DNA from: Sphingomonadales bacterium CG_4_10_14_3_um_filter_58_15
GTDB taxonomy: Bacteria; Pseudomonadota; Alphaproteobacteria; Sphingomonadales; Sphingomonadaceae
DNA length: 33,610 nucleotides
Assembly: GCA_002783865.1 (NCBI GenBank)
Contig: PFJE01000066.1
Span: 1 to 33,610 of the forward strand
Direction of reading: 5' to 3'
A program made the position numbers and the translations under genes. Below are positions 3,083-28,172 of the stretch, piece by piece. Every line of letters starts with the position of its first letter. Position 1 is the first letter of the stretch. Under the pieces are notes generated by a model. The model ran no database searches and was not told the DNA's origin. It saw only the letters and a list, made by a program, of their open reading frames with translations.

Positions 3083-6000
3083 CTAGAAGCGGAAGCTAAT
3101 CGCGCCGGAATAGACCTGGCTGGACACATCCGACCGGCCAATCGTCGAGTCGGCGGAGAGATCCAGTGAGACATTGCCCATGTTGTAGCGCAAGCCAACA
3201 CCCACTTCGCCCCAGTTCCTGTCCTGTGCTGCCAGCCGGAATGGAGCGGCCAGTCCATTGCCTCCGACAAAATTTGCACCGAAGCTATTCGGATTATCCA
3301 TGAATTCATGGACATAATGCATTGTGGCGCGAAGCTGCAATGCGCCACCTGGCTTCGATTTGAACTCGACACCTGCCAGACCCTGAACGCTGTTATAGTC
3401 GGGGCGAATGATCGCCAGCGCTGGTCCGCCACCCTGTTCGTTCACGTTGCTGAAGTTGATCTTTGCCGCACGGCCCCGAATTCCAGGCGCGATGATCGCA
3501 TCGAGAACATTCAGTTCCTTCGACAAGCCAACCTCGGATGCAAATACCAGACTGTCATCATCGGTCGTCAGGTTAAAGGCCTGCGCTCCAACAGCGACGT
3601 TGCGCAGGGTCTTCACATTATAGGTACCAAGAGTAACCCGGGCATCCAATACCAGATCGGCAAAGGTTTTCGATTGGCCGTAAATCGAACCCATAATGGC
3701 TTTCGACTGTGCCGTGTTCCCCAATGACGCCGTTGCATCGACATCCGAATAATAGCCGGACAGTCCTATGAATGAAGATTCGTCCAGATAATATTCCAGG
3801 CCAGCAGCAATGAAGAAGCCGTCAAATTCATCTTCTCCGTCCGCAGCGCCAGGATTGCGAACTGGCATCGACTGAGTGTCTCCATTTACGAAGCCACCGG
3901 CCAGATAAATGGCCATATCCTCGTTAACACCGCCGGTGCGGACTTCGGTATCGTCCGCAAATGCGGCGGCATCACCGACTGCAGAAGCGCCATTCATCGC
4001 AAAGCCGCCCAGAGATGCAGCCGCCAATTGTAGCGGTTGACCGATGACAGCGATGGTGCCCCCATTGGAAGAACGATCAGCAAAGCTGTTCCGGTTTTGG
4101 TGGAAACCGGCAACATTGCTGAGGAGACCGCGACCCATGGCCTGTGCTGTCGACTCCGTGTTCGGTGCCCAGCTGTCAAACGTCGATTGAATTGTCCCCG
4201 CATTCGCAAAGTCCAGGAAGGAGAAGAGACCCGCAACAGCCGTATTGCCACGGTTGCGATCCATCAAAGCAGCATAGCTGACTTGGACCGGGTTGAGCTG
4301 GTCGATGACATTCTGGTAACTTTGCGCCCGAACGGTCAAATCGACCGCATTTGCGCTGTAGGTCAGATTGGAAAGCAGAATGGCCGAGAGGTTCGACACG
4401 CCGCTAAATGTGCTCGTCACCCCACCGTTGGCGGTCAGTATTCGATAGGTGCTAGGCGTGGCCGTCTGGAAGCCGGCGACATTTGCCACTGCAACGTTGC
4501 CCCCGACATTTGCTACGCCTGTGACAGCAACACGATCCGAACTTCCAGAAGTGCCGACGTCAACGAACAGAGTTGAGCCCGATGACAAGATCAGATTGCC
4601 GTCGACATTTAGCGTGCCGATCGTGCCCATGGTACCTGGCGCAATTCCGCCAGCGATACTGGTCAAAAACGGAGCTTTCACGGTACCGGTTCCCGACAAT
4701 AATCCGCTAAAGAGCGAATAGTCGCCCGTGCTGGTAAGCGATCCATTGACCGCAACCCGTCCGCCTGTCTGATTCGTATCGATCAGCGTTGACAATTTTC
4801 CATTGCTGTTAATCACAAGACCGGCGGTGCCGCCTACGTTCAACCGGTCGATCGTCACATTGCTACTCAATGTCGTGGTACCAGCGTTGCTGAGCGTCAC
4901 TTCAAAATAACGACCGTTCACGCGTGCCGCTGGATTGGCGCTGACAACCGGGTTGACGTTGTTCGGAACAAAGCCGGTTGCACCGGGCAGACCATTAGCC
5001 AGCGTTGGCGTTGGTAGCGGATCTCCTGGTGCTTGCGATTCTTCCTTGGCAAGCTCAACACCAGTAGCAGCCTGGGCTTCTTCGTCCGCTGTCTCGACAC
5101 CATTATGCGGTGCTTCAATGGCGAATTCGACGCCATTGCCGTGCGCCTGATGCTCGGCGCCCATGATCATGCCTGCGCGTGCGCCCGGAGAGGAAGCAGA
5201 TGCAACATCGACTGGCGCTGCCACGGCTGTGCTGGGCGCGACTTGCGCTACAACATCCGATGATTCAGCATTGCCGTCGGCAGCCAGATCAGACACTTGA
5301 GAAGCATTGCCAAATTCCACAATGCCAATGCCCGAGGTCAGATTGCTACCAGCTGTAGCTGCAGGAGTTGGGGTCGGGGCTGGTGCGGGACGCGATGGCG
5401 GTGTTTCTTTGCCGGTGGCAAAGTTAAAGCAGCCGTCACCAGGGTTGTTGCCTTCCGGATCAAAGCAGACTTCACCGAATGTTGGAGCTGTGCCAAACCG
5501 TCCATCAGACTGCTTATCGGGGAAACCGTTTACTACTTTTCCATCGGCATTGATGATGCGGTAAGCAGGGTCGAGATCTGTCTGCCAGTGCGTTGCATCT
5601 TCCCACGCACCATTGCCCGTCTTCGCGCTAACATAGCGATAGGGATTGGTTGCTGCGATATAATCGGAAAACAGAAATAATGGCTGATAGAAACTTTCCG
5701 TACCGTAAGAGCTGAATACCTGGGCCCCAAAGAAACGTGATCCGCCGGACAACACGCCGATTTGAAGATTTTCGGTCGACAGGCTGTTATTTGCCGCATC
5801 AAGAATCAAAGGGCCGCCGGAATCACCGCCCGCAGTCGTCCCTTCACGAACCCGCGGCTCATCCTTGTACAGGTTAAAGTCAAAGGGGTTGGTTTTGTTC
5901 GGATCGTCGAAGTCGAGACGATAAAGAACCTGAGGCAGATCACCAAATGCGCCGCCAAACAAGAATTCGTTGCGCTTGTCAAAAGAGGACAGCGAACCCA

Positions 6001-6667
6001 GCATATTCTCCGCCGCACGACGGCGGTAGTCGATACCGACACTTGCACCCGTCGTTCCGCTACCCGTCCGGCCATAGCCGGTAATATTTACATGATAACC
6101 GGTGCCGTCCTTGTCGCTAATAGAAGCAGGCGTCGGCAACGGTGAGAAAAGCAGCGCCCAAGTCGGGATCTTGCCCGCAGGAGTAGCAAGGCTGGCGAGA
6201 GCAATATCGCCCTCTAGGAAACCTTGGCTGTCCGGCCGCTGATTGGATTGTGCGTTCCAAAAAATCTGGTTGACCAAAAACGTGTTGACCGATTGTTGGA
6301 AGGTACCAGAGCTGATGCCCAATTCATCGCGAATGAAGTTGCGCAGCTGGCTGGCGTTAAAGTCAAAAGACCAAGCGGTATTCACCACCGTGCCATAGTC
6401 GCTTTCCGGACGGTCATTCACACAGTGTGCGGCGAATAATACAGTACGCGGGTTGATCAGTGTACCCGAACAGACAAAGCCGTCACCGCGAGCGAACATG
6501 CCGACGCCATTGACGCCGCCAGCTTCATCGAGAATCTGGGCTGGGGTATAATTATCGTTGGGCACGATAGCCTGAGCAGGTGTAGCAAGAGCGATCGTGG
6601 CAATTGCCCCTGCCGCCGCAGTCCGCAAAAGTACAGAACGCTTAGATTGTCCGAAGTTCTTGGTCAT
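3083..6667 (-). CDS. Autotransporter with N-terminal trypsin-like (S1) serine protease and C-terminal beta-barrel
   Basis: 1194 aa: signal peptide (AAGAIATIALATPAQA), His motif VLFAAHCVND, Asp motif GDIALASL, Ser motif TTAGGDSGGPL, glycine/asparagine-rich passenger, C-terminal barrel ending in aromatic residue (SGAISFRF). Confidence 0.92.
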   Translation of the reverse strand: MTKNFGQSKRSVLLRTAAAGAIATIALATPAQAIVPNDNYTPAQILDEAGGVNGVGMFARGDGFVCSGTLINPRTVLFAAHCVNDRPESDYGTVVNTAWSFDFNASQLRNFIRDELGISSGTFQQSVNTFLVNQIFWNAQSNQRPDSQGFLEGDIALASLATPAGKIPTWALLFSPLPTPASISDKDGTGYHVNITGYGRTGSGTTGASVGIDYRRRAAENMLGSLSSFDKRNEFLFGGAFGDLPQVLYRLDFDDPNKTNPFDFNLYKDEPRVREGTTAGGDSGGPLILDAANNSLSTENLQIGVLSGGSRFFGAQVFSSYGTESFYQPLFLFSDYIAATNPYRYVSAKTGNGAWEDATHWQTDLDPAYRIINADGKVVNGFPDKQSDGRFGTAPTFGEVCFDPEGNNPGDGCFNFATGKETPPSRPAPAPTPTPAATAGSNLTSGIGIVEFGNASQVSDLAADGNAESSDVVAQVAPSTAVAAPVDVASASSPGARAGMIMGAEHQAHGNGVEFAIEAPHNGVETADEEAQAATGVELAKEESQAPGDPLPTPTLANGLPGATGFVPNNVNPVVSANPAARVNGRYFEVTLSNAGTTTLSSNVTIDRLNVGGTAGLVINSNGKLSTLIDTNQTGGRVAVNGSLTSTGDYSLFSGLLSGTGTVKAPFLTSIAGGIAPGTMGTIGTLNVDGNLILSSGSTLFVDVGTSGSSDRVAVTGVANVGGNVAVANVAGFQTATPSTYRILTANGGVTSTFSGVSNLSAILLSNLTYSANAVDLTVRAQSYQNVIDQLNPVQVSYAALMDRNRGNTAVAGLFSFLDFANAGTIQSTFDSWAPNTESTAQAMGRGLLSNVAGFHQNRNSFADRSSNGGTIAVIGQPLQLAAASLGGFAMNGASAVGDAAAFADDTEVRTGGVNEDMAIYLAGGFVNGDTQSMPVRNPGAADGEDEFDGFFIAAGLEYYLDESSFIGLSGYYSDVDATASLGNTAQSKAIMGSIYGQSKTFADLVLDARVTLGTYNVKTLRNVAVGAQAFNLTTDDDSLVFASEVGLSKELNVLDAIIAPGIRGRAAKINFSNVNEQGGGPALAIIRPDYNSVQGLAGVEFKSKPGGALQLRATMHYVHEFMDNPNSFGANFVGGNGLAAPFRLAAQDRNWGEVGVGLRYNMGNVSLDLSADSTIGRSDVSSQVYSGAISFRF

Positions 6668-16841: not shown

Positions 16842-16978
16842 TCACTAGGTAATATTCTACGCGCACCTTGCAGAATCGGTGAATCATCTCACACAGGAAT
16901 CGCTTCGTCGCAATTATACTACCTTTCATCGCAATGCTGTGCCATTGGCACTCAATCCACTCGCGCAAGAGGTGTGCC

Positions 16979-17239
16979 ATGACATCGGCTAAAGAAACTG
17001 AAATCGATCTCAATTACTATGCTTTCAGAAGCCAATTGCCCGACTTGTTGAGAACTCATGCAGGTGAGTATGCTTTGATTCACAAACAAAAAGTCATTTC
17101 CTTTTTCGACAATGCAATTGATGCCGTTACCGAAGGTTTTTCCAAATACGGGGATGGCGGATATTCGATCCAAGAAGTGACTCGCGAAGTCGAAAATTTG
17201 GGATTTTATTCTTATGCGGGTGGTGCGTTGCAAGCTTGA
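16979..17239 (+). CDS. Small DUF5678-like protein
   Basis: 86 aa: LNYYAFRSQLPDLLRTHAGEYALIHKQKVISFFDNAIDAVTEGFSKYGDGGYSIQEVT, matching the pattern of DUF5678-like proteins (LP-LL--H-G-(Y/F)-L---(K/E)V--FF--). Confidence 0.6.
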   Translation: MTSAKETEIDLNYYAFRSQLPDLLRTHAGEYALIHKQKVISFFDNAIDAVTEGFSKYGDGGYSIQEVTREVENLGFYSYAGGALQA

Positions 17240-17675
17240 GCGCAGGCAGGCTATTGTTGAAATAGGCCTTCAAAAGTTTATTCCATGGGCCCAAAATCTG
17301 CAATCACAGGACGCAGTAACGGCTTTTCCAGTTAATAGATATCGCGCACTAATTGACACCGGTGCACAAAGGACATGCCTCTCAAGGAGCACGATAGCGA
17401 TCGAAAATCTGTCGAGTCACAGCAAGAGAGCGATCCAAAATGTCCATAACCAACAGTTGCACCGGCTGTATTTTATAAACTTGGGATTCGTTTGCGAAAT
17501 CGAACGACCGGATGGCGGTGAAAATGATATCTCATACTATGCTATGGAAACCCCGTGTGAAGTGATCAACATCGCTGATAATGAATATTTTGACGCAATC
17601 TTGGGTATGGATATTTTAGAACAATTCGATTTTCGATTCCAAAAAACTGGCGAGTTTCTTTTACAAATTCCTTAA
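17214..17675 (+). CDS. Retropepsin-like aspartic protease without a signal peptide
   Basis: YRALIDTGAQRTCLSRS (DTG at 17355-17363) and NEYFDAILGMDILEQFDFRF (retropepsin C-terminal motif). Overlaps the upstream small ORF by 26 nt. Confidence 0.75.
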   Translation: MRVVRCKLERRQAIVEIGLQKFIPWAQNLQSQDAVTAFPVNRYRALIDTGAQRTCLSRSTIAIENLSSHSKRAIQNVHNQQLHRLYFINLGFVCEIERPDGGENDISYYAMETPCEVINIADNEYFDAILGMDILEQFDFRFQKTGEFLLQIP

Positions 17676-17779
17676 ACAAAATTCGAATCGATAAGATGAG
17701 TCCTTATCCATTTGCAGTATGGTTATCCGAAAGGCCCGCCCTATAATCGCCGGTTCAGAGGAGAGGAACCGCGCCGGTC

Positions 17780-26144: not shown

Positions 26145-27095
26145 ATGGCCTGTCCGATCCTGCTCTATCCTGCCCTTGCCTCCCTGTTCGCGGCGCAGCT
26201 TGCGGCGCCCATCCCGGTAGAACCGGAGACCGAAGCCACGATTGCCGACCGCCTGCCGGATCAATTCCTCCAGACAGACGCAGAACAGATTGCGATTGAA
26301 CAGGACCGCCTCAAGCGAATGACCGTCTCGGTCCGGATCAACAAGGGCGGGCCTTATGCCTTCATTATCGATACGGCCTCCCAGCGGACGATCCTTTCCA
26401 GTGAGATCGCTGGCGCGCTGGCGCTGGACATTGAGGATGAAGTCACGATCGTGGCGCTGGCCGGCAGCACCGTCGTGCAAACTGTCTTTGTCCCGAGCCT
26501 GACCTTAGGAAAACGCAGCTATGACGGACTGGTCTCGCCGACCTTTCGCTCCAGCAATATCGGTGCCGACGGTGTGCTCGGTCTCGACAGCCTGCAGGGG
26601 CAGCGGATCCTGTTCGATTTTCTCGCGCGCAATATTTCCGTCCAAGACACCAGCGAGCCGCTGAAAAGCCGCTCGCTGCGCGAAATCGTGGTGACGGCAA
26701 GACGGCGCTCCGGACAGCTTATCTTCACCAACGCCACAATCGCCGGTGTCAAGACCAGCATCATCATCGATACCGGCGGGGAACTTTCGATCGGCAACAA
26801 GGCGCTGCAGAGACGCTTGCGGCTGAAATCGTCGGCGATGGTGCAGACCAGTCTCGTCGATATCACCGGGCGCTCGGTGCTTGCTGATTACGGCATCGCC
26901 GAGGAATTGCTGATCGGCCGCGCCCGCTTTGGTATCATCCCCATCGCTTTCGCCGATATTGCGCCGTTCAAGGCCCTCAAGCTGGACAAGAAACCGGCGC
27001 TGTTTCTCGGCATGGATGCGCTGCGCAAATTTGACCGGGTGGCGATCGATTTTGCCAACCGGAAGATCTATTTTCTGATTCCGAAGGATGCTTGA
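26145..27095 (+). CDS. Exported protein with two retropepsin-like aspartic protease domains (copy 1)
   Basis: Signal-peptide-like N-terminus (MACPILLYPALASLFAAQLAAP); domain 1 FIIDTASQRTILS (DTA), GADGVLGLDSLQGQRILFDF; domain 2 SIIIDTGGELSIGN, LFLGMDALRKFDRVAIDF. Confidence 0.85.
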   Translation: MACPILLYPALASLFAAQLAAPIPVEPETEATIADRLPDQFLQTDAEQIAIEQDRLKRMTVSVRINKGGPYAFIIDTASQRTILSSEIAGALALDIEDEVTIVALAGSTVVQTVFVPSLTLGKRSYDGLVSPTFRSSNIGADGVLGLDSLQGQRILFDFLARNISVQDTSEPLKSRSLREIVVTARRRSGQLIFTNATIAGVKTSIIIDTGGELSIGNKALQRRLRLKSSAMVQTSLVDITGRSVLADYGIAEELLIGRARFGIIPIAFADIAPFKALKLDKKPALFLGMDALRKFDRVAIDFANRKIYFLIPKDA

Positions 27096-27188
27096 CAAAG
27101 TTGTTGGTCGAGGCAGGACGCCCGTCCATGATATCGGTCTGGCAATTGCCGGGCGCCGACCTATGCTGAGGCTGTCCGGGAAAATCGC

Positions 27189-28172
27189 ATGGGAGAGATT
27201 ATGTCCGCCTTTCTGACCTGCATGCCCGTCGTTTTGGCATCCGTTCTGGCGATGGCTTATCCCGTGCCCTTTGGCCAGCCGGTTCAGCCCGGCAGCCGGA
27301 TCAATCCCGAAGGCGAAATTGTCGATCTTGACGAAGACCGCTCCGAACGGATGACCGTCCCGGTCAGCATCGAAGGCAAGGGGCCCTTTTCCTTTGTCAT
27401 CGACACCGGTGCGGAACGGACCGTGATTTCACGTCGGATTGCCGACCGGCTAGCGCTGGAAGGGGAAGATCCGGCGGAATTGATGAGTATCGCCGGCACG
27501 AGCATGGTCGAGATGGTCTACGTGCCCAGTCTGACCCTGGGTCAAAAAAGCTACAATGGCCTGATTTCGCCGGTTTTGGCCGCCCGGCATATCGGCGCGG
27601 ATGGCATATTGGGCCTCGACGGGCTACAGGATCAGCGCATCCTGTTCGATTTCGTTTTGAACCAGATTTTTATCGAAGATGCAGACGAGGAAAGCAGCCG
27701 ACCAGCGTCGCGAGAAATCGTGGTGACCGCCAAACGCCGGTCGGGCCAGCTGATTTTCACAGACGCCACGATCTCGGGAATCAAGGTCAATGTTATCGTC
27801 GATACCGGCGCCCAGATTTCCATCGCCAATAAGGTCCTGCAAAAGCGATTGATCAGCCGGGCGAAAGAACTCGGGGATGATAATCTGTTGATTGCCGTGA
27901 CCGGGCAGACACTGGGCGTCGAATTCGGTCGGGCACGCGATTTCCGCATCGGTCGCGCCCGTTTTGCCAGTCTGTCGGTGGCATTCGCGGATGCGCCGCC
28001 GTTTGAACGCTTCGGCCTTGCCGACAAGCCGACCCTGCTGATGGGCATGGACGTGCTGCGCAAATTTGATCAGGTCGCGATCGACTTTCCCAAACGGAAG
28101 ATTCATTTTCTGACGCCGAAAAATGCCCGTTTGCATGTGGATGAACCAAGAAACAGCCGAATCAGATCCTGA
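27189..28172 (+). CDS. Exported protein with two retropepsin-like aspartic protease domains (copy 2, tandem paralog)
   Basis: FVIDTGAERTVIS, GADGILGLDGLQDQRILFDF, VIVDTGAQISIAN, LLMGMDVLRKFDQVAIDF; alignable along its length with 26145-27095. Start may be the MSAF methionine four codons downstream. Confidence 0.87.
   Translation: MGEIMSAFLTCMPVVLASVLAMAYPVPFGQPVQPGSRINPEGEIVDLDEDRSERMTVPVSIEGKGPFSFVIDTGAERTVISRRIADRLALEGEDPAELMSIAGTSMVEMVYVPSLTLGQKSYNGLISPVLAARHIGADGILGLDGLQDQRILFDFVLNQIFIEDADEESSRPASREIVVTAKRRSGQLIFTDATISGIKVNVIVDTGAQISIANKVLQKRLISRAKELGDDNLLIAVTGQTLGVEFGRARDFRIGRARFASLSVAFADAPPFERFGLADKPTLLMGMDVLRKFDQVAIDFPKRKIHFLTPKNARLHVDEPRNSRIRS

Follow-up and report, generated by a model that had tools for sequence, protein, structure and literature searches.

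The pairing of a small DUF5678-like gene with the gene for a retropepsin-like aspartic protease is a conserved module, and its recurrence in distant bacteria, occasionally as a fused gene, suggests a proteolytic enzyme, not described so far, that has a partner protein of its own. We describe it from a Sphingomonadales contig whose complete 33,610 bases are the window analyzed here, part of a 2.69-Mb genome in 180 contigs. Two genes, both on the + strand, lie between the end of pgmG (16841) and the start of a MAPEG gene (17780). The upstream one, the small DUF5678-like partner gene (16979..17239, +), is supported by its ORF, Pfam and AlphaFold2; it encodes 86 aa from the ATG at 16979, while an alternative ATG at 16934 would give 101 aa. 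A Shine-Dalgarno-like (SD) sequence, AAGAGGTGT, precedes it at 16965..16973 (+), and no convincing gene was found from 16842 to 16978. The downstream gene (17214..17675, +) encodes a single-domain retropepsin-like aspartic protease of 153 aa, assigned through the Pfam families gag-asp_proteas and RVP and through profile relatives. The two genes overlap by 26 nt (17214..17239, +), and the protease ATG, which has no SD sequence, falls within the TAT-GCG of the partner's LGFYSYA motif. This is the arrangement that the sequence-only reading had described, with two ORFs on one strand sharing 26 nt. The two other retropepsin-like genes that it had placed in the window are also there (26145-27095 and 27189-28172); they are adjacent, spanning 26145-28172, and their products of 316 and 327 aa, one of them with VIDTGAERTVIS, are longer than the paired protease. 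Elsewhere in the window, 3083-6667 (−) encodes a large autotransporter of 1194 aa with a trypsin domain (Pfam Trypsin and Autotransporter).

The protease carries in its one domain both a catalytic motif, ALIDTGA, and a second motif, AILGMDI, as is characteristic of A2-type enzymes. The catalytic LIDTG region maps by translation to 17349..17363 (+) and is conserved in relatives; among 38 of these, the active-site D and G are invariant and the T is nearly so. The Pfam matches lie under the cut-offs for both gag-asp_proteas (2.1e-5, 25.4 bits vs 28.2) and RVP (8.9e-4, 20.0 vs 20.7), and the profile relatives are Ddi1 and retroviral proteases, including the HTLV protease. We modelled one natural in-frame pair of a relative (L140) as a fusion in which, purely as a modelling device, the one TGA was treated as Ser. 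Its protease half is predicted to adopt a retropepsin fold, matching the XMRV, EIAV, FIV and HIV proteases, Ddi1 and APRc with probability 1.00, which agrees with the sequence-only reading. Both halves of the model are well folded; since the junction and the tail are disordered and the pTM is 0.57, it shows no docking or interface. By eye, neither a signal peptide nor a transmembrane-like stretch was visible in the window protease, in agreement with the initial claim, and from its sequence the stand-alone enzyme is probably cytosolic. In two otherwise intact pairs (L071:1498-1980 and L125:3221-3670), DNG replaces the DTG of the protease.

The small protein matches Pfam DUF5678 (PF18929) with E=2.5e-4 and 21.2 bits, below the gathering cut-off of 23.2, and 11 of its 39 relatives match at E<0.01. 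Its AlphaFold2 model (pLDDT 80) has a helix-strand-strand-helix-strand order and ends in a conserved tail (SIQEVT...LGFYSYA) that is predicted to be disordered, with residues 78-86 at a pLDDT below 50. The sequence of this tail varies between subfamilies. No relative with a solved structure was found by sequence or fold. The best viral fold matches include Pandoravirus DUF5678 proteins, whose models are matched with probability 1.00 but an E of 0.03, and also tailed-phage models. A second small-protein subfamily, of the GPYLIRQVGA type, is represented by L038, L221 and L222; near its genes we saw, by eye, genes resembling toxin-antitoxin ones (MNT/HEPN- and Phd-like, or DUF4160/DUF2442-like) or transposase and GIY-YIG-like genes.

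The sequence-only reading had asked how often the two families are neighbours across phyla, and we found them as immediate neighbours in several phyla, sometimes fused; the counts that follow are based on ORF position together with a protease motif or profile. Early relatives were a pair in the same genus (L003, overlap 26 nt), two copies in one genome (L004 and L037, 14 nt) and a pair in another family (L038, 20 nt). In 385 genomes of the class, a profile search gave 29 places with the small gene, 19 of them with the protease directly downstream; of the others, two retain remnants of the protease (L055, L065) and in two the small gene is fused to a ParA-type ATPase. Within the family of the window, the protease was beside the small gene at 10 of 10 places. 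When about 85,000 species genomes were scanned with the small protein as seed, we obtained 41 loci, from Alpha- and Gammaproteobacteria and from genomes labelled Nitrospinota, Binatota/Binatia and Planctomycetota, and the protease was directly downstream in 38. The remaining three are a contig end (L104), a locus with only the protease C-terminus (L137) and a decayed one (L141), and two of the 38 pairs have damaged proteases (L119 and L127). At the scan loci, the profile found no protease away from a small gene. Searches seeded with the protease placed the partner beside all four strong non-self matches and all three evaluable extra copies, a small sample.

Canonical DUF5678 (PF18929) genes from three other phyla behave in the same way: judged by eye, a retropepsin is adjacent or fused in 29 of 42 cases, two of them natural fusions. 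By phylum, 12 of 19 DUF5678 genes in Planctomycetota are fused to, or directly precede, an ORF for a D[TS]G protease, and such an ORF accompanies 4 of 5 in Nitrospinota and 13 of 18 in the phylum of the L131 genome, whose record is titled Candidatus Binatota. The two fusions (L182 and L191) are copies in one planctomycete genome, each a single ORF of 200 aa in which an aspartyl protease domain comes after DUF5678, and in both of them each Pfam domain scores above its cut-off. Distances between partners correlate with those between proteases (Mantel r=0.54, p=2e-4), a value to which shared ancestry contributes. On contig JALCBB010000007.1, five pairs stand in tandem with abutting stop and start codons (L100:70-5340, also L140). 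A leader, TKAEEPAMSKSALIAT, is repeated in most of the five pairs of this array.

How the two genes overlap is itself conserved. In 36 of 38 pairs, the protease start codon (35 ATG, 1 GTG) is embedded at the same place in a conserved motif of the partner, LG-FFS-[HY]A or more broadly LG-x-x-S-[HYNC]-[AV], and the residue at that place is set by the nucleotides: His by CAT, Tyr by TAT, Asn by AAT and Cys by TGT. Where it is His, the codon is CAT in 28 cases and CAC in 2, while neighbouring genes use 47% CAT (p=8e-8). Third positions vary freely in the preceding codons, so Leu-Gly-Phe-Phe-Ser is kept for the sake of the protein. An SD-like site precedes 28 of 38 partner starts, a count that allowed several possible starts for the small gene and so favours a match, and only 1 of 38 protease starts; this near-absence at one start and presence at the other make it probable that translation of the protease is coupled to that of the partner. 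Termination-reinitiation is the simplest reading of these sequences. Translational coupling, as originally suggested from the overlap, is thus strongly supported by embedded starts, codon bias and SD counts.

The pair differs in composition from its surroundings, as had been claimed. Its GC is 0.422 vs 0.573 for the window and is the lowest of any stretch of equal length, every such stretch outside the pair having a GC of at least 0.48; GC3 is 0.40 and 0.44 in the two genes vs 0.57-0.77 in 15 others. At 39 of 39 loci the GC of the pair is below that of its flanks, by 10.6 points on average. In several species of the same genus, pgmG adjoins the MAPEG gene without the pair. One such sister species (L007) has a pgmG–MAPEG spacing of only 103 nt, the last 78 nt of which are 82% identical to 17702..17779 (+) of the window, so that this segment before the MAPEG gene represents the ancestral right flank of the site. 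The pgmG–MAPEG gap of L006, L008-L011, L013 and L015 contains ORFs for hydrophobic peptides of about 40 aa, in tandem on the minus strand; their types, MTNVNIQNxVAAAFAALFSAAVLVAASVGPAVQNSAALIA and MPRFTLRQEIAAGFAAI..SSVGPATNGATFI, are conserved in the genus and absent from the window. A BLAST search found the protease in 3 of 151 related genomes, the source genome included, and a profile search found the small gene in 9 of 201 genomes from the family. With so few genomes, the pair is patchy in genus and family, and was either gained here or lost widely. Many pairs in Sphingomonadaceae sit between ftsK and lolA, and elsewhere pairs lie beside dnaX-ybaB and other housekeeping genes. This frequent, single conserved site indicates that inheritance within Sphingomonadaceae is partly vertical. 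The possible horizontal acquisition raised by the sequence-only reading stands in part: the pair-less locus of relatives and the mismatch in GC and GC3 favour it, but vertical descent accounts for some of the distribution. There was no match among 72,556 plasmid records, with queries from several subfamilies, and no credible one among 50,697 phage records, with several family members as query. We rejected a defence-island context because most of the 72 proteins encoded nearby have housekeeping roles (ftsK, lolA, dnaX, ybaB and others); PADLOC matches to SspH/mad8 among them were taken to be FtsK.

At no fewer than seven loci (L055, L065, L119, L137 and, from the PF18929 set, L198, L209 and L217), the partner is intact and its protease has been deleted, truncated, frameshifted or mutated at the active site, a pattern seen mainly in searches seeded with the small gene, which are blind to orphan proteases. 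The small domain also occurs by itself. In two genera of one family (L053 and L056) it forms the N-terminus of a ParA-type ATPase, and no protease was found beside these fusions. On a viral contig of 110 kb (L220:1650-2210), a frame of 187 codons beside a tail-fibre-like ORF ends in a lone relative of the small domain, and again no protease was found by it. Because some DUF5678-like genes are alone or fused to the ATPase, the domain has other uses as well.

Bacterial retropepsins are already known; what is new, as far as we could find, is the module with DUF5678. The literature under open licence gave no published description of it, which is not proof of absence, and in that literature DUF5678 itself appeared in an unrelated mention only. 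Pfam PF18929 covers the same region, with a predicted fold that may be similar, and paired-type proteins above its cut-off likewise precede a retropepsin; the window protein differs in scoring below the cut-off and in its extra conserved C-terminal tail, and the family has no recorded function. The prokaryotic single-domain clan AA peptidases COG3577 and COG5550 ('pSNCAP'), to which no role has been assigned (Llorens, 2009; PMC2642776), are likewise small, single-domain and retropepsin-like with a DTG active site. Unlike for the window protease, no pairing with DUF5678 has been described for them, and with NCBIfam TIGR02281 and TIGR03698 as stand-ins for these groups, the window protease scores far below the cut-offs (13.8 vs 57.95 and 14.9 vs 57.35 bits). 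RimB and RloA are Pseudomonas retropepsins in operons with genetic partners (PMC11957791, PMC12239564). Those partners comprise ATP-grasp proteins (RimK, RloC) and RloB, with no DUF5678-like one described, and RloA is secreted; no ATP-grasp gene lies beside the window pair, which is flanked by pgmG and MAPEG, or among the 25 most frequent of the 66 families listed for the 72 neighbouring proteins. The bacterial retropepsin APRc of Rickettsia (PDB 5c9b) is matched by the model of the L140 relative (target TM 0.65-0.71); unlike for the window protease, a small partner gene is not described for it in the literature consulted.

In its overlapping, partner-first and apparently coupled genes, the pair has the organization of a type II toxin-antitoxin system, and it shares with such systems small gene size, a patchy distribution, sometimes multiple copies and loss of the effector before the partner. 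It differs in that the partner has no recognised DNA-binding domain, that plasmid carriage was not seen and that toxicity is only postulated. The PADLOC candidate defence modules PDC-M08 and PDC-M52 have retropepsin-like B components with a weak match to paired proteases. The PDC-M08 component matches the window protease weakly (E=0.008) and leaves the small partner unmatched, so that one component of two is found, and this looks like fold-level similarity; we rejected identity with PDC-M08, whose model picks other retropepsins of 320-410 aa in the class and not this pair. None of the small partners tested gave a meaningful PADLOC match, and in the open-licence literature we found no paper linking a retropepsin with toxin-antitoxin systems and none on PDC-M08.

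We tentatively propose that the pair is a two-gene operon in which the small protein may well be a dedicated regulator that keeps a cytosolic retropepsin inactive, possibly in the manner of a toxin–antitoxin system; the pattern of loss and the conserved flexible tail point to such restraint. Physical association of the two proteins is very probable from the partner-first order, the apparently forced co-translation, the fusions and the correlated divergence. Ribosomes would begin with the partner, which has a normal start; as the protease start is embedded in the final codons of the partner and has no ribosome-binding site of its own, the protease would be made mainly once the partner has been. 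The partner would bind the new protease and hold back its activity, or let it fold correctly yet stay inactive, its unstructured tail probably sitting in or beside the active-site groove. A signal would then free the protease to dimerise and cleave a cellular or invading target. Counting against this regulator are the predicted L140 fusion, which lacks docking, the different tails of the subfamilies, the bias of small-gene-seeded searches toward decayed proteases, and apparently lone or ParA-fused DUF5678-like genes. An extension to a broad proteolytic toxin-antitoxin or antiviral module, in which the freed protease would cut an essential cellular or phage protein and DUF5678 would be the antidote, is unlikely as we judge it. 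If the antidote reading were true, lone viral DUF5678-like genes (L220, Pandoravirus, the tailed-phage models) would be counter-inhibitors, which we give as a lead only.

Much of the same evidence bears on other roles. An activator, chaperone or adaptor that folds the protease or brings its substrate is somewhat unlikely; strict order and coupling would suit a chaperone made first, the natural fusions an adaptor domain in cis, and the small domain is joined to a ParA-type ATPase as an adaptor could be, yet a helper of the protease only would not be predicted to outlast its loss. Known bacterial A2 proteases are reported to involve other protein factors (PMC11957791). Doubtful, in our view, is that the small protein is a substrate, clipped perhaps at the hydrophobic LGFFS stretch of its tail to release an active form, much as retroviral polyproteins are cleaved. 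Retropepsins often cut at hydrophobic or aromatic residues, such as the conserved flexible tail has, and L182 and L191 are each one polypeptide that could process itself; however, the partner outlives a decayed protease in L119, L137, L198, L209 and L217, and pairing persists though the tail differs between subfamilies. That unrelated small genes merely hitch-hike in AT-rich, weakly selected spots, or that the contig is an artefact, is highly improbable. The patchy distribution, the annotation without function and the MAG origin would fit it, but recurrence across phyla, the conserved overlap, the embedded start codon and the fusions refute hitch-hiking as an explanation of co-occurrence, and the flanks on either side are of one genus and lie in the order expected.

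Since only two short genes are involved, the proposed regulation is easily checked. Most of the DUF5678 genes considered here adjoin or are fused to a retropepsin, which offers a first clue to the function of a Pfam family that is still uncharacterised and points to a module of protease and partner present in several phyla of bacteria. Should the partner prove to be an inhibitor, the module would represent a prokaryotic retropepsin controlled by a dedicated protein antidote, and it would bear on the early use and control of HIV-type proteases.
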